Assembly: GCA_016182795.1 (NCBI GenBank) | Contig: JACPFW010000003.1 | Location: forward strand, 1-64,000 | Length of the DNA: 64,000 nucleotides | Reading direction: 5' to 3' | From: Gemmatimonadota bacterium | GTDB lineage: Bacteria > Gemmatimonadota > Gemmatimonadetes > Gemmatimonadales > Gemmatimonadaceae | Shown here: one piece after another, positions 21,913 through 29,257 of the stretch | Position numbering within the stretch: the first letter of the stretch is position 1 | Layout of the letters: every line of letters begins with the position of its first letter | Program-made: the position numbers and the translations under genes | Notes under the pieces: model-generated | Database searches by the model: none | What the model was told of the DNA's origin: nothing | The model's input: only the letters and a program-made list of their open reading frames with translations

Positions 21913-22413
21913 ATGGCCGAGTCTCTTATCGATGTGCGCCATCTGCCAAAGCGCGAGGCGTATCGCGTGCTCAGCGAGCAGCTGGAAAGTGTCTGCGCCG
22001 ACGAGCGAGATCCGGTGGCGTTGATGGCGACCATCGCCTGCCTGCTGCATCACGGCTTTGGACATCTCTGGACGGGGTTCTACCGCGCCGACGGCGATCG
22101 TCGACTCGTCGTTGGCCCGTATCAGGGCTCACTTGGCTGCATGGACATTGCCATCGGGCGCGGCGTCTGCGGCACGGCCGCAGCCGAGCGGCGCACCATG
22201 GTGGTGCCCGATGTCAGGGAGTTCCCCGGCCACATCGCCTGCGACGCGCGCTCGCTCTCCGAGATCGTCGTCCCCGTGATCGCGCCCAATGGCCGGGTGA
22301 TTGCCGTGCTCGACATCGACTCCGAGGCGCTGGCGACGTTCGACGATGACGACGCGCGCGCGCTGGAGTCGATGATGTCCCGATATGCCCCGCGCCTGGC
22401 GGGAATGGGATAA
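21913..22413 (+). CDS. msrC: Free methionine-(R)-sulfoxide reductase, GAF type
   Basis: This 166-residue GAF-domain enzyme reduces free methionine-R-sulfoxide. The three characteristic Cys are present in family context: GSLGCMDIAIG, RGVCGTA and PGHIACDARS, and SEIVVPV follows. The start ATG 21913 (MAESLIDVRHL) is chosen because the domain begins there; the frame stays open far upstream only as an antisense shadow of the DUF5916 gene. It is divergent from that gene by about 90 bases and is followed 8 bases later by the DUF488 gene, so the two probably share a transcript. Length is typical of the family. Confidence 0.9.
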   Translation: MAESLIDVRHLPKREAYRVLSEQLESVCADERDPVALMATIACLLHHGFGHLWTGFYRADGDRRLVVGPYQGSLGCMDIAIGRGVCGTAAAERRTMVVPDVREFPGHIACDARSLSEIVVPVIAPNGRVIAVLDIDSEALATFDDDDARALESMMSRYAPRLAGMG

Positions 22414-22421
22414 CCGAAACG

Positions 22422-22814
22422 ATGTCAACATCTGCCCCCCGCTTTCGCATCAAGCGCGCCTACGAGCCGCCCGATCCCGGCGACGGTGTGCGCGTGCTGG
22501 TCGATCGTCTCTGGCCGCGCGGACTGTCCCGCGCCGGCGCGGACCTCGACCATTGGATGAAGGACGTGGCCCCCAGCCCCTCGCTGCGCATCTGGTTCGG
22601 CCACGACCCAGCTCGCTTTGCCGACTTCGCTGCCCGCTATCGCGACGAACTGGCGCACAGCCCCGACGCGCTGGCCCCGTTGCTCGCGCTCGCCCGGGAA
22701 GGGCCGGTAACCCTCGTGTATGCTGCCCGCGACGAGCGGCACAACCATGCCCTCGTTCTGCGCGACTTCCTGGCAAAGCAGCGCCGCCGCCCCCGCGCCG
22801 CCCGGACAAAATAG
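22422..22814 (+). CDS. DUF488 (YeaO-like) protein
   Basis: This 130-residue protein shows the DUF488 signature: RIKRAYEPPDPGDGVRVLVD, the RLWPRGLSR loop, the helix WMKDVAPSPSLRIWFGHDP, and a C-terminal VTLVYAARDERHNHALVL strand-helix. Members are small cytosolic proteins of unknown biochemical role. It starts 8 bases after the msrC stop, suggesting co-transcription with the oxidative-damage repair enzyme. The C-terminus has a basic tail (RRRPRAARTK). Confidence 0.85.
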   Translation: MSTSAPRFRIKRAYEPPDPGDGVRVLVDRLWPRGLSRAGADLDHWMKDVAPSPSLRIWFGHDPARFADFAARYRDELAHSPDALAPLLALAREGPVTLVYAARDERHNHALVLRDFLAKQRRRPRAARTK

Positions 22815-22816
22815 TT

Positions 22817-22836
22817 ATCAAGGAAAACACCTTGAT
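22817..22836. promoter_or_regulatory. Inverted-repeat operator candidate upstream of the SufR-like operon
   Basis: ATCAAGG (22817-22823), six bases, CCTTGAT (22830-22836), about 80 bases before the regulator gene in an otherwise AT-richer stretch. The right half continues TATTTGAA, similar to CTTGATATATTAGAA near 28643, beside the second regulator. Confidence 0.55.
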
Positions 22837-22915
22837 TATTTGAAGCCGTTGCCGCATACTGCTTGGTGCAGGGCCGGGACGTAGTCCCGGGCTCACACCA
22901 AACGCGGGGGCAACG

Positions 22916-23551
22916 GTGGCTCCACAAGGCATTCCGGTCATGAAGGAGCGGCTTCGGTCGCTCCTCGACGCGCTCAAGTACCGCGGGCGTGCCACGGTGC
23001 CCGAGCTGGCCAGCGACCTCGACCTCAACGTCGAGACCGTGCGCGACCACCTCCGCACGCTCGAAGGGCGCGAACTGGTGCGCCGGGACGGCACGCTCCA
23101 GCAGGGGCCGGGGCGCCCGGAGATTGTCTTCGTGCTCACCGCCGCCGCCGAGGCGCTCTTCCCGCGCCGCGAAGCGGAGATCCTGCGCGAGCTGGCGCAG
23201 TTCATGGTGGCCCACCGGCAGGCGCCGCTGCTGCGCGACTTCTTTCGCGAGTACGTATCCGAGCGGCGCGAGCAGGGACTGGCCCGCGTCGAGGGGCTCA
23301 CCGGCCGCAAGCGCGTGCGCGAAGTGGCGCGCATCATGGACGAAATGGGCTTCATGCCCGTGCTCGAGGATCACGGCGACACGCTGCGCCTCTGCCACTG
23401 CCCGATGCGCGGCCTGGTGGAAGCCACCGACTTGCCGTGCCGCGAGGAGATCGGCCTGCTGCGCGAACTGCTCGACGGATCGCTGACCCGCGTCTCGCAT
23501 ATGCCGCATGGCGATCTCGCCTGCGCCTACAAGGTGGACATCGAGTCGTGA
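22916..23551 (+). CDS. SufR-like winged-helix regulator with Cys cluster
   Basis: This 211-residue protein starts at GTG 22916, or possibly at ATG 22940. An N-terminal winged helix (RGRATVPELASDLDLNVETV, then HLRTLEGRELVRRDG) is followed by a helical linker and a C-terminal Cys region: CHCP near residue 162, Cys about 175 (C-x12-C) and Cys 203. This is the SufR/COG2345 layout, in which the Cys ligate an Fe-S cluster that senses O2, NO or iron status. The usual extra Cys between 175 and 203 is Ser, with His nearby, so the ligand set may differ. Its stop overlaps the GTG of the mrp gene, so it heads the operon and probably controls it. Confidence 0.75.
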   Translation: MAPQGIPVMKERLRSLLDALKYRGRATVPELASDLDLNVETVRDHLRTLEGRELVRRDGTLQQGPGRPEIVFVLTAAAEALFPRREAEILRELAQFMVAHRQAPLLRDFFREYVSERREQGLARVEGLTGRKRVREVARIMDEMGFMPVLEDHGDTLRLCHCPMRGLVEATDLPCREEIGLLRELLDGSLTRVSHMPHGDLACAYKVDIES

Positions 23552-24618
23552 TCGAAGAGGGCGACGTTCGCGCGGCGCTCGCCGAGGTCGCGTATCCGGG
23601 GCTCAAGCGCGATATCGTGTCGCTGGGGATGCTCCGGTCCGTCGCGGTGCGCGACGGGCGTGTCCACGTGTCGCTCACCGTGTCCACGGAGCGCGACGAC
23701 GTGCCGGATCTGCTGCGCGCGGCCGTGGTGGAGCGACTCGCCCGCGCGGGGGCGGTGCGCACCGAAGTGCAGCTCCTCACGCCCGAGCGCCACGCCGCCG
23801 ATCGCGACCCGTGGCGCAATCAGGGGCGCCTGTCCAATGCGCGTCGCGTGATTGCCGTCGGGGCGGGCAAGGGCGGCGTCGGCAAGAGCACCGTCGCCGT
23901 GAATCTGGCGCTCGCCCTGCGCGCGTCGGGGGCGCGCGTCGGCATTCTCGACGCCGATATCTACGGCCCCTCGGTGCCCGTCCTGCTCGGACTCGAAGAC
24001 GGCGCGGCCCGCACGCGCATGACGACCGACAAGCAGATCGTGCCGCTCGAGGCGCACGGACTTTCGGTCATCTCCTTTGGCTTCTTCCTCGGCGCCGATT
24101 CGCCGGCGGTCTGGCGCGGTCCGATGGTCAGCAAGGCCGTCACGCAGTTTGCGCGCGGCGTCGTCTGGCCCGACCTCGACTATCTCGTCATCGACCTCCC
24201 GCCTGGTACGGGTGACGTGCCGCTCGCCCTCGCGCAGGCCGTGGTGATCGACGGCGCCGTGGTCGTGACGACCCCCCAACGCCTCGCCACGCTCGAAGCG
24301 GCCAAAGCGGTGGACATGTTCCGCACGCTCGACGTGCGGGTGCTCGGCGTGGTGGAGAACATGAGCCGCGCCGTCTGCTCCTGCGGTCGCGAGTCGCACC
24401 CGTTTGGGCGCGGCGGCGGCGACCGCCTGGCCGCGGCGGCCGACCTGCCATTGCTCGGCGAACTGCCCTTTGCCGACGGCGTGGTTGACGGCGGAGATCG
24501 CGGAGCGCCGGCGCTCATTGAGGCGCCCGACGCGCCGTTCGCGCAGGCGATGCATCGTGTGGCGGCCTCAGTGCGCGCAGCGGTCGAGCCGATGCCGGCG
24601 TTGCAGGAGACGGCATGA
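23548..24618 (+). CDS. Mrp/ApbC-type Fe-S cluster carrier ATPase
   Basis: A GTG start overlaps the upstream stop (GTGA). The 356-residue protein has a DUF59-like N-terminal domain (residues 1-90) and a P-loop ATPase of the Mrp type, with the deviant Walker A GKGGVGKST near 108, DADIYGPSVPVLLG, and VIDLPPGTGD. The C-terminal Cys motif that holds the bridging cluster in Mrp is usually CxxC; here it reads VCSCG (CxC), a small departure. Mrp proteins load Fe-S clusters onto target proteins in the cytosol. Placement behind a SufR-like regulator fits cluster repair or delivery in this operon. Confidence 0.88.
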   Translation: MIEEGDVRAALAEVAYPGLKRDIVSLGMLRSVAVRDGRVHVSLTVSTERDDVPDLLRAAVVERLARAGAVRTEVQLLTPERHAADRDPWRNQGRLSNARRVIAVGAGKGGVGKSTVAVNLALALRASGARVGILDADIYGPSVPVLLGLEDGAARTRMTTDKQIVPLEAHGLSVISFGFFLGADSPAVWRGPMVSKAVTQFARGVVWPDLDYLVIDLPPGTGDVPLALAQAVVIDGAVVVTTPQRLATLEAAKAVDMFRTLDVRVLGVVENMSRAVCSCGRESHPFGRGGGDRLAAAADLPLLGELPFADGVVDGGDRGAPALIEAPDAPFAQAMHRVAASVRAAVEPMPALQETA

Positions 24619-25844
24619 GCGCTCCCCCGCTCCGACTTCCCGGCGAGCACTTCGCCGCGTCGCTCGGCTTTCTCCTCGCCGGGGCGCTGGGCCTGTGGCG
24701 CATTGCGCCCGAGCTGGCGATGGGCGCGTACCCCGCCGCGCCGGTCGTCGCCGTGACGCACCTGTTCACGCTCGGCTGGCTGACCACGTCGATCATGGGC
24801 GCGCTCTACCAGTTTCTTCCCGTCGCGCTCAACCAGGCCATTGCCTCTGAGCGAGTGGCGCACCTCACGTTCACCCTCCAGGTCGTCGGCGTGGCGCTGA
24901 TGGTGACGGGCATTGCGCTCCACCATGCAACTGTGCTCACCATCGGGCTCGCGGTGCTGAGCGCGGGCATCACGCTGTTTGTCGGCAATCTGACCGTCAC
25001 CCTGCGCCGCTCCAAACAGCGCGAACTCACGTGGTGGGCGCTGTGCGCGGCCGCGACCTTTCTTTCGATTGCCCTCATCCTCGGCGTGGCGCTCGCGATC
25101 AATCGCTTCACGGGGATGCTTGGAACAGCGCACGATCTCGCCCTGCGCGTGCACCTGCACACGGCGCTGTACGGGTGGGTGCTGCTCGTGATCGTGGGCG
25201 TCTCACACCGCCTGCTCCCCATGTTCCTGCTCAGCCACGGCGGCGTCGAGCGCTACGGCTGGTGGGCGGCTGGTCTTATCGCCACTGGTGCGGCGTTCCT
25301 CACGCTCTTTCACCACGTGCCGATTCTTGGACGTGAGCTGCCGCTGGCACTCTTGGCCGCCGGGCTCCTCGTCTGGGTCGTGCAGGCGCGCGTGTTCTAT
25401 CGCCACCGGCATCGGCCGCAACTCGATGCCGGCCTGCGTCTGAGCGCCGTCGCCATTGGCCTGTTCGCGCTGGCTCCCTTGGCGCTGGGGCGGCTTCTGC
25501 TGCCGGGCGTCACGGCGACGGCGCTCACGACCTACGCCGGCATTCTGGTGCTCGGCGCGGTGCTCTTTGTCGCGGCGCAGTACTACAAGATCGTGCCGTT
25601 CCTCATTTGGAACCGGTACTACGGGCCGCTTGCCGGCACGCGTCCACTGCCGCGCGTCGCGGACTTGTATGCACCCCGTGAAGCGATGATCGCTATCACG
25701 CTGCTGGCCAGCGGGGCCGCGGTGGTGCTCGCGGGGATCGTCGTTGCCTCAGTCGCATTTATCAAAGCCGGCGCGGTGCTGCTCACCGCCGGCGCGGTGG
25801 TGGAAGCCCGTCAACTGTGGGGCGTGTCGCGGAGCCGACCATGA
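24615..25844 (+). CDS. Polytopic membrane protein, heme-copper-oxidase-subunit-I-like or NnrS-like
   Basis: The start overlaps the mrp stop by four bases. The 409-residue protein has about 12 hydrophobic segments with conserved-looking His in or beside helices: VTHLFTLGWLTTSIMGALYQ, LRVHLHTALYGWVLLVIVG followed by SHRLLPMF, and AAQYYKIVPFLIWNRYYG. The spacing of these His and the aromatic motifs recalls the heme-binding helices of cytochrome oxidase or NO reductase subunit I relatives and NnrS-type heme proteins. No full set of catalytic ligands can be assigned by eye. It is the only integral membrane component of the operon, so it could be a respiratory or NO-related heme protein; this is inference. 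Confidence 0.6.
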   Translation: MSAPPLRLPGEHFAASLGFLLAGALGLWRIAPELAMGAYPAAPVVAVTHLFTLGWLTTSIMGALYQFLPVALNQAIASERVAHLTFTLQVVGVALMVTGIALHHATVLTIGLAVLSAGITLFVGNLTVTLRRSKQRELTWWALCAAATFLSIALILGVALAINRFTGMLGTAHDLALRVHLHTALYGWVLLVIVGVSHRLLPMFLLSHGGVERYGWWAAGLIATGAAFLTLFHHVPILGRELPLALLAAGLLVWVVQARVFYRHRHRPQLDAGLRLSAVAIGLFALAPLALGRLLLPGVTATALTTYAGILVLGAVLFVAAQYYKIVPFLIWNRYYGPLAGTRPLPRVADLYAPREAMIAITLLASGAAVVLAGIVVASVAFIKAGAVLLTAGAVVEARQLWGVSRSRP

Positions 25845-26137
25845 ACGAAACGCAATCGCAACCATCCGACGCCGTGCTGCGCGATGCCCTGCGCACGGTC
25901 ATCGACCCCGAAATCGGACTCGACATCGTGACTGTCGGCCTGATCTACGACGTCGAACTCAACGCCGACGTGGCGCGCGTGACGTTCACGCTCACCACGC
26001 GCGGCTGCCCAATGGAACAGCACATCTCGCAGGGCATTGTCCGCGCGCTGTCGAGCGTGCCCGGCATCGCATCCGTTGACCTCAACCTCGTCTGGGATCC
26101 CCATTGGCATCCCGGCATGATCCAGGAGCACCGATGA
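25841..26137 (+). CDS. DUF59/MIP18-family protein
   Basis: This 98-residue protein begins at an ATGA overlap with the membrane-protein stop. The motif VIDPEIGLDIVTVGLIYDV and the conserved Cys in RGCPMEQHI identify the DUF59 family, which includes PaaD and SufT and assists Fe-S cluster maturation of specific enzymes. The C-terminal VDLNLVWDPHWHP is also typical of the family. In this operon it probably acts with Mrp on a cluster-containing target. Its own stop overlaps the next start (ATGA). Confidence 0.88.
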   Translation: MNETQSQPSDAVLRDALRTVIDPEIGLDIVTVGLIYDVELNADVARVTFTLTTRGCPMEQHISQGIVRALSSVPGIASVDLNLVWDPHWHPGMIQEHR

Positions 26138-26673
26138 TCAACCCTCAGGTCGAGTCGTTTCCGCTGGCACTGCAGGTCGTCGATCCCGCGACCATCATCG
26201 AGGCCGACGTGCGTGAGGACCTGCGCAACGGCCGCGAGCCGTTTCAGCGCATCATGGCCGCCCGCGATGAAGTGCCCGAGTTCGGGGCGCTGGTCGTGCG
26301 CGCCATCTTCGAGCCGGCGCCGCTGTACAAGGTGCTCGGCAAGGCGGGGTGGGCGCATCACACCGAAGAGCTGGCCGCCGATGACTGGCGCATCTGGTTC
26401 TATCGCGAGATTCCGGTCCTCGATGTGCGCGCCATGGAGCCCCCCGAGCCGCTGGCGCACACCATGAATGCCGCGGCCGCGCTGCCGCCGGGCGGCGCGC
26501 TGGTCCAGCTCAACTCGCGCATCCCGCATTTCCTGCTCCCGAAGCTCACGGAGCAGGGCTTCACCTACCATGTGCACGAAGCCTCGGCAGAGCGCGTGCA
26601 CGTGCTCATCCGGCGCCCTCCTGCGGCGTCCGCGTCACCCAATCCCACTGAGGAGCATCACGCTAATGTCTGA
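26134..26673 (+). CDS. Protein with two tandem DUF2249 domains
   Basis: This 179-residue protein starts at ATG 26134, overlapping the DUF59 stop. The first DUF2249-like unit spans roughly residues 10-95 (DVREDLRNGREPFQRIM, and the strand-loop ending DDWRIWFYR). The second spans about 97-165 (VLDVRAMEPPEPLAHTMNA, GALVQLNSRIPHFLLPKL). DUF2249 is a small alpha/beta domain of unknown biochemistry that frequently lies beside nitrogen-oxide or molybdenum/Fe-S enzyme genes. The duplication inside one chain, plus two further single-domain genes nearby, is unusual. It ends beyond the start of the next gene (26666). Confidence 0.78.
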   Translation: MINPQVESFPLALQVVDPATIIEADVREDLRNGREPFQRIMAARDEVPEFGALVVRAIFEPAPLYKVLGKAGWAHHTEELAADDWRIWFYREIPVLDVRAMEPPEPLAHTMNAAAALPPGGALVQLNSRIPHFLLPKLTEQGFTYHVHEASAERVHVLIRRPPAASASPNPTEEHHANV

Positions 26674-26902
26674 ACCCCGCACCCTCGACGTGCGCGTCAT
26701 CCCGCCGCGCGAAAAGCACCCGACCATTTTCCAGACCTTCGGCGCGCTGGCGCCGGGCGAGTCGTTCGTCCTGCTCAATGACCACGATCCGCGCCCCCTG
26801 CGCTATCAGTTCGAAGCCGAGCACGCCGGGCAGTTCGGCTGGCAGTACCTCGAGCAGGGGCCGGCCGTCTGGCGCGTCGAGATTTCCAAGGCCTCGGCCT
26901 GA
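26666..26902 (+). CDS. Single-domain DUF2249 protein
   Basis: This is a 78-residue protein with LDVRVIPPREKHPTIFQTF, GESFVLLNDHDPRPLRYQF and the terminal QYLEQGPAVWRVEISK, the full DUF2249 pattern including the HDP motif. An AGGAG at 26651-26655 precedes the ATG at 26666, which itself overlaps the tail of the previous gene. The stop TGA shares its last base with the next ATG (26900-26904). Tight packing indicates a single translationally coupled mRNA. Confidence 0.85.
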   Translation: MSEPRTLDVRVIPPREKHPTIFQTFGALAPGESFVLLNDHDPRPLRYQFEAEHAGQFGWQYLEQGPAVWRVEISKASA

Positions 26903-27639
26903 TGCGCACCGCGCTGAGTTCGGCCGCGGCGCCGCGCGCGTCGCTCGACGACCTGCTGGCCGGACTCACGCGTCACGGGCTGGAGGCGGTGGAGCTTCGC
27001 GTCAGTGATGGGCACGCGATCAACGCGGCCGCGTCGTTGGATACGCTGCACGCAGCGGCCCACGCATTGCGTGAGGCGCGGGTGCGCGTGGCTTCTCTGT
27101 TGGACGACGACGGCGTTCCCACGGAGTTCGCGCTGCGTGCCGTACGTGCGCTCGATACACAGCTGGTCGTCGGCGCCGCCGTGTCGCTCTACGAACGGTT
27201 GCAGCGTGCAGACGCGGCCCGTGCGGCAACGATGCCAGTGGCCGTTCTCGTCGGCGGCCGTCAGGCCGACACCGACGCGCGCGCCGTGCGTGCGGCGGGA
27301 CATCGTGTCGTGTGGGAGGCCCATCCAGACGACGCGCCGTTGGCGGAGGTCTGCGACCGCGTGATCGCGGCGTCCGCCGATGCGCTGGTCGGTGTGCGTG
27401 TCTGCGGCGGAGGGCCCGAAGGTTCACTGCATGAAGGGCGGGGCATTGGCGCGCTGATGGCGCGCCTAGCCGTCGCCGGATTTGACGGCGCGCTGATTCT
27501 GGCGCCGAGTGATCGCAAGTACCACCTGCTCTGGGAGTCGTGGCTGCGGCGCCACGGCGGCTGGGGGTGCGGCGGTGGCGCTGCCGACCCGGCAGAGCGG
27601 GTGCGTCGAACTGTCCCGATGGTGGAGGAAATCGCGTGA
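26902..27639 (+). CDS. Sugar-phosphate-isomerase-like TIM-barrel protein
   Basis: This 245-residue cytosolic protein has the xylose-isomerase/AP-endonuclease-2-like barrel pattern: an opening helix-strand GLTRHGLEAVELRVSDGH, VRVASLLDDDGV, VVWEAHPDDAPLAEVCD, VGVRVCGGGPEGSLHEGRG and FDGALILAP. Metal-ligand Glu/His positions are only partly recognisable. A Cys-containing GGWGCGGG follows near the end. Its place between two DUF2249 genes, sharing start/stop overlaps with both, ties it to their process. No sugar metabolism gene is nearby, so the substrate cannot be inferred. Confidence 0.6.
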   Translation: MRTALSSAAAPRASLDDLLAGLTRHGLEAVELRVSDGHAINAAASLDTLHAAAHALREARVRVASLLDDDGVPTEFALRAVRALDTQLVVGAAVSLYERLQRADAARAATMPVAVLVGGRQADTDARAVRAAGHRVVWEAHPDDAPLAEVCDRVIAASADALVGVRVCGGGPEGSLHEGRGIGALMARLAVAGFDGALILAPSDRKYHLLWESWLRRHGGWGCGGGAADPAERVRRTVPMVEEIA

Positions 27640-27896
27640 CCGATATTGTGACCCTGGACGTACGACCCGTCGAGCCGAAGGATCGGTTCGAACGCATCAT
27701 GACGGCGTATGAGGGGCTGAGCGTGGACTCGACGCTGGAACTCACCGTCGACCACGACCCCAAGTGCATGTACTACACGCTGCGCGCCACGCGCGGCGAA
27801 GATGCCTTCCGCTTCACGTACCTGGAAGAAGGGCCGGAGGTGTGGCGTGTGCACGTCTGCCGCCTTTCCGACGCGCCAGCGAGCGAGATGGCGTAG
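27636..27896 (+). CDS. Single-domain DUF2249 protein
   Basis: A GTG start overlaps the TIM-barrel stop (GTGA). The 86-residue protein repeats the family pattern: TLDVRPVEPKDRFERIMTAY, LELTVDHDPKCMYYTL and FRFTYLEEGPEVWRVHVCRL. It carries the VDHDPKC variant, with a Cys after the HDP motif that the 26666 gene lacks. It is the last gene of the operon and ends 29 bases before the convergent second regulator. Confidence 0.85.
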   Translation: MTDIVTLDVRPVEPKDRFERIMTAYEGLSVDSTLELTVDHDPKCMYYTLRATRGEDAFRFTYLEEGPEVWRVHVCRLSDAPASEMA

Positions 27897-27925
27897 CGGT
27901 CGTCGCGGCCGTGAGGTCGCGACGG

Positions 27926-28570
27926 TCAGGTCGCGGGCGCGACCTCAAAGCGGCAGCGCGGGCGGCTCCCATGCTCGCACGCCGACTTGATACGCTCTCC
28001 TGACACATCGGCGAGCAGCGCTTCGACGGCGCGGCAGACACCGGGATGCTCCGCGACGGCGTCGCCCAACGGGCAGGCGCCGCACCCGGCGATGCTGTCC
28101 TGGCCGCGGTGGCGCTCATGCCGCACGTCGCCGCCGAGCGCGGTGAGCACGGCGACGGAGCGGGCGATCCCCTCCGCGCGGTTGGCGGGAGCGGGGAGAC
28201 CCAGCCGATGCGCCATGCGTCGCCCCACGCGGCGCAGCGCGTCGGCGGTCATGGCATCGGACTGCCGGTGGTCGAGTTCATCGAGCAGGGCGAGGAGCAG
28301 CGGCGCATAGGCCCGCGAAAACGCCGCCTCGGCTGCCGGATCGACAACGTAGAGATTGGCCGGCTTGCCCGCGCCGGCGCCGCGCCGAGTGCCCGACACC
28401 TGCACCAGACCGTCGCGCTCCAGCGTGGCGAGGTGCGAGCGGATGGCGTTGGGCGACAGTCCCAACGCGGTCGCCAGTTCGTCCACCGACTGCGGTCCGC
28501 GCCGGAGGGCGGCCACAATCCGCCCGCGGCTCGTGGACAGGAACTTCTCGCTCAGTGTCGACCCGGCCAT
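27926..28570 (-). CDS. Second SufR-like winged-helix regulator
   Basis: This 214-residue protein has a winged helix (SRGRIVAALRRGPQSVDELA, then GLSPNAIRSHLATLERDGLV) and a C-terminal Cys region CGACP, Cys after 12 residues, Cys after 18 and Cys after 7. It therefore retains four candidate Fe-S ligands (C-x12-C-x18-C-x7-C), more complete than the regulator at 22916. It faces the DUF2249 operon convergently and is divergent from the DUF4142 gene. Fe-S-dependent sensing of NO, O2 or iron is inferred from the family. The two regulators bracket the operon. Confidence 0.78.
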   Translation of the reverse strand: MAGSTLSEKFLSTSRGRIVAALRRGPQSVDELATALGLSPNAIRSHLATLERDGLVQVSGTRRGAGAGKPANLYVVDPAAEAAFSRAYAPLLLALLDELDHRQSDAMTADALRRVGRRMAHRLGLPAPANRAEGIARSVAVLTALGGDVRHERHRGQDSIAGCGACPLGDAVAEHPGVCRAVEALLADVSGERIKSACEHGSRPRCRFEVAPAT

Positions 28571-28624
28571 CGGCTCCTCCGAGAAGGGCGGTACACGGAT
28601 TCTAATGTCAGAACCTTGATTGCG

Positions 28625-28665
28625 CTATTTACACCAAATATACTTGATATATTAGAAATATCCAC
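28625..28665. promoter_or_regulatory. AT-rich divergent promoter/operator region
   Basis: In a GC-rich genome this stretch (TTTACACCAAATATACTTGA and TATATTAGAAATATCC) is strikingly AT-rich. It lies between the minus-strand regulator and the plus-strand DUF4142 gene. It contains CTTGATATATTAGAA, similar to CTTGATTATTTGAA beside the inverted repeat at 22830. Autoregulation by the SufR-like protein is a reasonable guess. Confidence 0.5.
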
Positions 28666-28717
28666 CTAACGTATGGAAGTGTCCCCCCGTTGTCCCCCCT
28701 ATTGCACGGAGCACACC

Positions 28718-29257
28718 ATGCGCACGGTCCCCCTCTTCGCCGCCATCGCGGCCCTCTCCCTGATCCCGTTTGCCGGTCCGGCGGCCGCGCAGGCGCCCGG
28801 CCGCCTCGACGATCCCACGATCGTGGCCATCTTCGACGCGGCCAACACGGACGACATCGAGACCGGCAAGCTGGCCGCCACCAAGGCGTCTTCCAAGGAA
28901 GTGCGCGACTTCGGCGCGATGCTTGCCCGCGACCACCAGATGGTGCGCCAGTTGGGGCGTGATCTCGCCGCCAAGCTTCACGTCACCCCCACGCCGCCGG
29001 CCGACGCGAGCTCCAAGAAGGCCCACGAGGCGACCATGAAGCAGCTGCGCAGCGCGTCCGGCGCCGAGTTTGATCTGGCCTTTGCGCGCTACGAGGTGAA
29101 GTTCCACGCCGACGTGATCGCCGCCATCAACTCGACGCTGCTGCCGGCCATCCAGAACGCCGAGCTGCGCGCGCTGGTCGTGAAGGTTGCACCGGCGTTC
29201 GAGGGGCATCGCCTGGCGGCCGAGCAGCTGGCGAAGAAGCTGGCCGCGGCGCAGTAA
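28718..29257 (+). CDS. DUF4142 exported protein
   Basis: ATG 28718 gives a signal peptide (VPLFAAIAALSLIPFAG, cleavage near AAAQ). The 179-residue product carries the DUF4142 four-helix pattern: IFDAANTDDIETGKLAATKA, VRDFGAMLARDHQMV, and FDLAFARYEVKFHADVI. Members are periplasmic, ferritin-like helical bundles of unknown role. An upstream ATG at 28673 would add 15 residues in front of the signal and is less likely. The promoter region is shared with the SufR-like regulator, suggesting stress-linked expression. Confidence 0.85.
   Translation: MRTVPLFAAIAALSLIPFAGPAAAQAPGRLDDPTIVAIFDAANTDDIETGKLAATKASSKEVRDFGAMLARDHQMVRQLGRDLAAKLHVTPTPPADASSKKAHEATMKQLRSASGAEFDLAFARYEVKFHADVIAAINSTLLPAIQNAELRALVVKVAPAFEGHRLAAEQLAKKLAAAQ

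Follow-up and report, generated by a model that had tools for sequence, protein, structure and literature searches.

The locus examined here raises the question of what is achieved by an operon that combines iron-sulfur (Fe-S) assembly proteins, four DUF2249 domains and a membrane protein of respiratory appearance, with no catalytic nitrogen-oxide enzyme among its genes. It occupies positions 22817 to 28570 of a 64,000-nucleotide stretch (hereafter the window) of contig JACPFW010000003.1, from a Gemmatimonadota bacterium of the family Gemmatimonadaceae (assembly GCA_016182795.1). Very probably, the operon is a conserved, largely uncharacterised accessory module linked to nitrogen-oxide respiration. 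The parts named by the original prediction are all present, namely overlapping genes, four DUF2249 domains, a leading SufR-like regulator (reg1) and a second one (reg2) facing the end. Eight genes run in one direction from 22916 to 27896, all on the plus strand, and each of the seven junctions is an overlap (of 4, 4, 4, 4, 8, 1 and 4 bases in gene order). Pfam supports the two winged-helix regulators, Mrp, DUF59 and DUF2249, and the four DUF2249 domains above cut-off in the operon are all those found genome-wide. The third gene encodes the membrane protein, called mem below.

Regarding gene order, tblastn returned 12 distinct loci besides the window in which mem, a DUF59 protein, a tandem DUF2249 protein, a single DUF2249 protein and a TIM barrel follow one another in the same order on one strand. 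The last DUF2249 gene is next in all 12, interrupted by the contig end in L010 (L and G numbers are our handles for loci and genomes). Seven of the 12 have a regulator upstream, and seven have Mrp there; L006, L010 and L046 are short contigs. The order was found in other Gemmatimonadota and in one Thermoleophilia metagenome-assembled genome (MAG), and the nearest named relative found is a Gemmatimonadaceae MAG (L005, equal to G102) from the window's own family, with a mem that is 73% identical. Since the order is kept in 12 other distinct loci, chance is excluded; the block conservation proposed earlier as a check is thus borne out, and the neighbours are not random. More widely, a tandem DUF2249 match lies behind mem in 28 of 34 distinct loci and is missing in L042, L049, L059, L073, L074 and L075, with the stretch of L049 ending 1.6 kb past the mem start.

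The link to nitrogen oxides was examined in a phylum sample of 249 genomes, window genome included. The mem profile matches 59 of them at E 0.001; in 37 the copy is long and reaches at least 80 bits, and these are called mem-positive, whereas the other 22 match part of mem only. The 37 include G217, where the gene is frameshifted, and G194, matched to residue 353 only. Clade II NosZ and/or a NirK-like gene of at least 150 bits, a threshold of our own choice, is present in 37/37 mem-positive versus 93/212 mem-negative genomes (p 2e-12, Fisher, kinship uncorrected), with clade II NosZ in 29 and NirK-like genes of at least 150 bits in 27 of the 37. According to the curated NirK cut-off, the values are 12/37 and 22/212 (p 0.001, likewise uncorrected for kinship). 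The NosZ count comprises 89 genomes above cut-off and two with split fragments (G120, mem-positive, and G175). As for eNOR-type oxidase-family genes, 18/37 mem-positive and 42/212 mem-negative genomes have one, a match being E 1e-100 or better to one query; the match in G204 is 45% identical, and those in G120 and G125 have an in-frame TGA. The type itself was assigned on L047 and L062 only, from a Gln replacing the active-site Tyr and a cupredoxin subunit upstream, which are the marks of eNOR given in the available part of the published description (PMC8756737). Among the eNOR-type matches in several f5/g62 genomes, G120 and G125, many contain one in-frame TGA, and others of the same genus none.

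Linkage points the same way as co-occurrence. For 16 of the 37 genomes, the distance from mem to NirK, NosZ or eNOR is about 30 kb or less (1.3 expected; the list was compiled by eye from profile-match tables), and in L047 a single strand carries, in this sequence, the genes of eNOR subunits II and I, another gene and mem. DUF2249 is found in 29/37 mem-positive genomes and always (29/29) within 4 kb of mem. A divergent mem adjoins clade II nosZ in G019, G068, G181 and G218 (L073-L075), three of these four genomes being without DUF2249. Gene neighbourhood and co-occurrence thus strongly support the nitrogen-oxide link, and the co-occurrence with nosZ and nirK that had been put forward for checking is observed in the phylum sample.

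Beyond the phylum, mem relatives occur on 139 plasmid records, of which 14 were opened, mostly one per genus from 40 listed (12 annotated, 2 unannotated). In all 12 annotated places DUF2249 lies within 3 kb of mem, and DUF59 adjoins the set in 6. Genes for nirK, nor or nosZ are found within about 10 kb of mem in eight of the 12, on plasmids of Sinorhizobium meliloti, Shinella, Paracoccus, Rhizobium, two Mesorhizobium, Aminobacter and one Haloprofundus.

The window's genome has nitrogen-oxide genes on other contigs. Clade II NosZ and its cluster are on contig C9 (L072), and a NirK-like gene on contig C35 (L069:9736-10758) scores 170 bits, below the curated cut-off, and keeps residues invariant across five NirK sequences, including H130, D133, H135, H169, C170, H178, M183, H273 and H322. 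COX1 matches in the genome comprise one aa3-like gene (by eye), one cbb3, mem and two 4-helix proteins; neither a nitric oxide reductase (NOR) type gene nor a further full-size COX1 match was found, though at 93% assembly completeness absence is not proof. The two 4-helix proteins are encoded with a ScdA_N gene on contig C45 (L068:9420-10646), one with its COX1 match on helices 1-4, the other with a match in the region of helix 10, and are possibly a separate small oxidase-like pair. Their identification as NosB was rejected; a separate 199-aa membrane protein follows nosZ (L072), which from its position is probably NosB. The idea of a stand-alone unit without a catalytic enzyme therefore holds locally but not for the genome. 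Because NosZ and the NirK-like gene are encoded elsewhere in this genome, and because relatives often carry the module beside eNOR, cNOR, NirK or NosZ, it is better described as accessory.

The central component, mem (24615..25844, plus strand), is a 409-aa protein with 12 helices and a heme-copper-oxidase subunit I fold, according to AlphaFold2, Foldseek and hhalign. Its AlphaFold2 model has a pLDDT of 80.7 and a pTM of 0.85, and the top Foldseek matches are the cbb3 oxidase chains 6xkw_n and 3mk7_A (TM 0.77 by query length). Foldseek gives 22 matches with E up to 0.001, every one of them an oxidase or NO reductase chain or a respiratory complex that holds such a chain, and a profile search of PDB sequences with mem reaches cbb3 subunit I at E 7e-4. 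In contrast to subunit I proper, mem stays below the Pfam COX1 cut-off (22 bits versus 34.8) and has fewer residues than the solved chains that it matches with E below 0.001 (445 aa or more); a haloarchaeal relative does exceed the COX1 cut-off, with 50.9 bits. No NCBIfam model matches mem.

The conserved histidines separate mem further from the oxidases. An alignment of 46 members, drawn from Gemmatimonadota, Thermoleophilia, Thermus, alphaproteobacteria and haloarchaea, has just two invariant histidines (46/46), H49 on helix 2 and H180 on helix 6. Four subunit I sequences share six invariant His (H61, H208, H258, H259, H346 and H348 in the genome's own CcoN), and the helix-10 HxH pair is present in 0/46 mem members; in the window's mem the residues aligned with it are Tyr 307 and Gly 309, in a profile alignment that is weak (E 8e-4). 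Of the sequence sets, A2 leaves out L012 (frameshift), and A3 leaves out L012, L025 (stop), near-duplicates and mem copies without a returned locus. The original prediction had likened the membrane protein to respiratory heme proteins, which holds for the fold but not for the helix-10 His pair, and a canonical oxidase or NOR was rejected for mem on the latter ground. Oxidase hemes attach on helices 2 and 10, the HxH being the pair that holds them on helix 10; since only H49 and H180 are invariant in mem, its heme, if any, is expected between helices 2 and 6. There mem would bind heme, and it may sense NO.

The window's mem also keeps H182 and, at the end of helix 7, an HH pair (233-234) that occurs in 14/46 members, namely the window and 13 closer-clade relatives, and is absent in 32/46. 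The pair could mark a metal site that distant members lack. With H49, H180, H182 and the HH pair there would be room for a non-heme metal site, and mem might then be a catalytic NO reductase, or an NO-consuming enzyme of the oxidase superfamily, that replaces the missing NOR. The fold and the setting fit such an enzyme, as does a genome with clade II NosZ and a residue-conserving NirK-like gene but no NOR among its COX1 matches. However, no member has the helix-10 HxH, most lack the HH pair, and mem coexists with annotated norB in S. meliloti and Shinella and with eNOR in L047 and L007/L062, so that we hold a catalytic role to be very unlikely.

According to hhalign, mem consists of three 4-helix repeats, whose thirds match one another with E 4e-13, 9e-13 and 4e-10 and match single 4-helix proteins from the same clusters with E 1e-13, 2e-12 and 4e-8. 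The first third is homologous to CcoN helices 9-12 (E 2.5e-8), and the other two thirds match weakly (E 7e-4). As a control, the thirds were run against 42 hydrophobic proteins drawn from 15 loci, with figures taken from the best 30 of the 42. Nine mem family members come on top (E 2e-19 or better), followed by subunit I proteins (4e-4 to 2e-3), which are thus, by single sequence among these 30, the nearest membrane proteins outside the family. Annotated NnrS proteins rank third (0.004 to 0.13), interspersed with one eNOR at 0.04, and the top score among the remaining proteins is 0.07. Like mem, NnrS is a membrane protein of denitrification clusters, and one 4-helix relative matches NnrS weakly (E 1.4e-4, under the cut-off). 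An identification of mem as NnrS was nevertheless rejected: PF05940 does not match mem at E 0.5, and S. meliloti, Shinella, Rhizobium and Mesorhizobium have a distinct NnrS gene in the vicinity of mem. In literature on the mem, DUF59 and NnrS neighbourhood no description of mem was recognised, with coverage of subscription journals being thin. We regard mem as an unnamed family and, given an oxidase-like shape from which some of the metal-binding histidines are missing, as a candidate nitric-oxide or redox sensor. A bolder proposition, which we consider unlikely, is that mem is a third kind of oxidase-fold heme protein, built from a tripled 4-helix unit with its heme between helices 2 and 6, a place that is empty in oxidases, and that it senses or converts NO in the service of bacterial and archaeal denitrifiers; the 4-helix proteins that occur singly in these clusters would then be living relatives of the unit tripled into oxidases and NO reductases.

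As for the DUF2249 proteins, two of the three resemble a studied pair. The tandem protein (26134..26673, plus strand; two DUF2249 stretches) is 35% identical over 162 residues to a Thermus DrpB-type protein (E 1e-24), and the 78-aa single-domain product (26666..26902, plus strand; PF10006, 110 bits) is 71% identical over 69 residues to a Thermus DrpA-type protein. No DUF2249 relative of known structure was found by sequence at E below 0.1. In the accessible portion of the published account, DrpA and DrpB of Thermus thermophilus are proteins of 72 and 273 aa with the domains of the plasmid pair described next, and their genes overlap by 25 bp; the genes are bicistronic, lie behind the nar operon and are presented as a nitrate sensor, and their double deletion makes NarG expression nitrate-independent and lowers nitrate reductase activity to about one tenth (PMC6282519). 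On the two Thermus plasmids opened, one run holds genes for a 72-aa DUF2249 protein, a 273-aa protein, a hypothetical protein, protoglobin, mem and DUF59, the first two overlapping by 28 bases; this pair was assigned to the drpAB type by length, domains and overlap, with slightly different masses. In L079 the 273-aa protein is DUF1858 plus two DUF2249, and the hypothetical protein is a 4-helix one with a weak COX1 match.

The window's genes thus share with the pair their overlap and products of both types, the smaller being, like DrpA, a single DUF2249 of about 72 aa. They differ in that the window's DrpB-like copy lacks the N-terminal DUF1858, whereas the relative in L007 has all three domains; nor do they lie behind a nar operon, as no narG above cut-off exists in the genome, and mem, DUF59 and Mrp are not mentioned in the excerpt available on the published pair (PMC6282519). 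The earlier suggestion that the core chemistry has not been described is therefore wrong in part, namely for these two DUF2249 genes, whose Thermus counterparts were studied by deletion. In Haloferax mediterranei, the part of the report at hand describes four DUF2249 genes induced in denitrification; one of them lies in the nar operon and encodes an Mrp-type NTPase that carries DUF2249 (PMC11218638).

The remaining parts are Mrp, DUF59 and a TIM barrel. The Mrp/ApbC-type P-loop NTPase with an N-terminal DUF59 domain (23548..24618, plus strand) has the expected NTPase domain (PF10609 2.8e-89; PF01883 2.5e-11) and scores 309 bits against the ApbC equivalog model, below the 348 cut-off. Canonical Mrp carries a C-terminal CxxC; in the operon's protein it is absent, with C-x-C in the window and near relatives and no Cys in farther ones, and the genome's other Mrp (contig C42) has no Cys at that place either. 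The separate DUF59 protein, or metal-sulfur cluster assembly factor (25841..26137, plus strand; PF01883 1.8e-16), shares 41% identity over 81 residues with its counterpart encoded next to mem in Thermus. Between the DUF2249 genes lies that of a xylose-isomerase-like TIM barrel (26902..27639, plus strand), which matches nothing in Pfam and is predicted as a (beta-alpha)8 fold (pLDDT 81.8, pTM 0.80) with sugar-epimerase TIM barrels as its nearest Foldseek matches; a C-terminal GGWGCG is invariant in 8/8 aligned sequences. The substrate of Mrp and DUF59 and the role of the TIM barrel can be given as putative only.

These genes invite a different interpretation, namely a maturation unit in which mem, DUF59, Mrp and DUF2249 proteins insert or repair the metal centres of nitrogen-oxide enzymes, mem being a heme or electron carrier and not a sensor. 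DUF59 and Mrp are Fe-S trafficking families, and tandem DUF2249 proteins also match TusA (above cut-off in L007, below in L079 and L080). In L007 the module has CtaA-like and UbiA/CtaB-like genes nearby, and L045 and L047 have CtaA-like ones (named by eye). Loss of DrpAB cuts nitrate reductase activity while the protein is still made, according to the available part of that study (PMC6282519). Such a unit has no single client, however, as its neighbours range over eNOR, cNOR, NirK, NosZ and ccoNO, and we rate maturation as somewhat unlikely.

Control of the operon would lie with reg1 (22916..23551, plus strand; start likely 22916 or 22940), which has HTH_20 and ArsR-type HTH domains above cut-off. 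Against the SufR model TIGR02702 it scores 36 bits (E 5.7e-9) and reg2 32 bits, so both are SufR-like but far below the cut-off of 178.8. The conserved C-terminal cysteines of SufR are found in reg1, where Cys 152, 154, 167 and 195 (numbered from 22940) are invariant in 11/11 aligned sequences, comprising reg1, nine relatives and reg2. The cyanobacterial SufR site is an inverted repeat with a 6-base spacer. A palindrome of this kind, the operator-like ATCAAGG-N6-CCTTGAT (22817..22836, no strand), lies about 100 bp 5' of reg1, at its own promoter, and position 22817, where the original prediction began, is its first base. In winged helix, cysteines and repeat reg1 is thus like SufR; it differs in its low model score, and its linkage here is to nitrogen-oxide genes. 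No sigma-70-like site was found 5' of reg1 in the promoter scan.

The pattern TCAAGR-N6-YCTTGA occurs once (22817-22836) in the 3.13-Mb genome. Its rarity alone proves little, because a reversed control pattern is equally rare, and it is conservation that bears weight. TCAAG-N8-CTTGA with zero mismatches lies within 300 bp 5' of reg1 in the window, L005, L007 and L077 (4/11 operon starts), and in L008 and L044 before or at the first gene of a longer run (DUF488 and ccoN-like, respectively). Among the remaining starts, L045 has one mismatch, L024 two, and the other three nothing convincing. Across 34 scanned loci, 6/6 zero-mismatch sites are at operon or run starts or, in L077, 5' of a ScdA_N gene. 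ScdA_N belongs to an Fe-S repair family answering NO damage, so that a regulon with a ScdA_N gene behind the palindrome agrees with an NO or Fe-S model. From these observations, reg1 would bind the palindrome and control the operon through it.

In L044 (L044:3970-8867) the module lies downstream of a ccoNO-like run with the palindrome at the run start, and the oxidase may share its control. An oxidase in the same run would also suit an ordinary oxygen or iron stress operon, with the linkage to denitrification genes due to hitch-hiking. Co-occurrence and linkage that span distant phyla and archaea speak against this, and we find it improbable.

The reading that we prefer within the accessory module is a sensor mechanism with a helix 2-6 heme in mem, to which we give a little less than an even chance; its cofactor, signal and direction of signalling are what we infer. 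The SufR-like regulator, with its four conserved cysteines, would read Fe-S or NO status and act through the palindrome at 22817 on the operon and on its own gene. The products would be the Drp-type DUF2249 set, DUF59 and Mrp as an Fe-S or metal loading pair, and the oxidase-fold mem, which would hold one heme b between helices 2 and 6 via H49 and H180 and act as a membrane NO or redox sensor-transducer feeding the DUF2249 proteins. DUF59 and Mrp would rebuild the Fe-S centres of respiratory enzymes.

Several observations weigh against this reading or the link behind it. In the window's genome the operon is not beside any nitrogen-oxide gene, and, as noted, narG above cut-off is lacking. An eNOR-type match is missing in 19/37 mem-positive genomes (cNOR and qNOR were searched in the window genome only), and 8/37 are without DUF2249, their mem copies being mostly divergent. 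In 4/12 annotated plasmid places none of nirK, nor and nosZ is in view (Thermus, Natrinema, the second Haloprofundus and Halobaculum); two of these four have genes of Fe-S repair type (ric, or hemerythrin plus DUF542) and DUF488 nearby. The zero-mismatch palindrome is at only 6/11 operon starts, one-mismatch sites also occur elsewhere, and the reversed control pattern, too, has one genome match. Mrp is without CxxC, some orthologues being without both cysteines, and the two-histidine heme proposal leaves HH 233-234 unexplained.

The last gene of the operon (27636..27896, plus strand; 73.8 bits) encodes the third DUF2249 protein, a single-domain one that holds the fourth domain. Beyond it, reg2 (27926..28570, minus strand) converges on the operon and diverges from a DUF4142 gene at 28673-29257. 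The reg2-like gene and the divergent DUF4142 gene form a pair (window 27926-29257) that recurs in another family (L055:3939-5269), 5.4 kb from mem. RNA elements in 22400-28900 gave 0 matches at Rfam gathering thresholds.

Regarding what the operon means, mem represents an unnamed membrane family whose link with denitrification genes extends over several phyla and the haloarchaea, including the laboratory species Sinorhizobium meliloti and Thermus thermophilus. The palindrome provides a direct handle on the operon's signal, and the mem repeats, together with their single-repeat relatives, bear on the origin of oxidases and NO reductases. If mem senses or handles NO, it would be a missing piece in the control of N2O-forming respiration.

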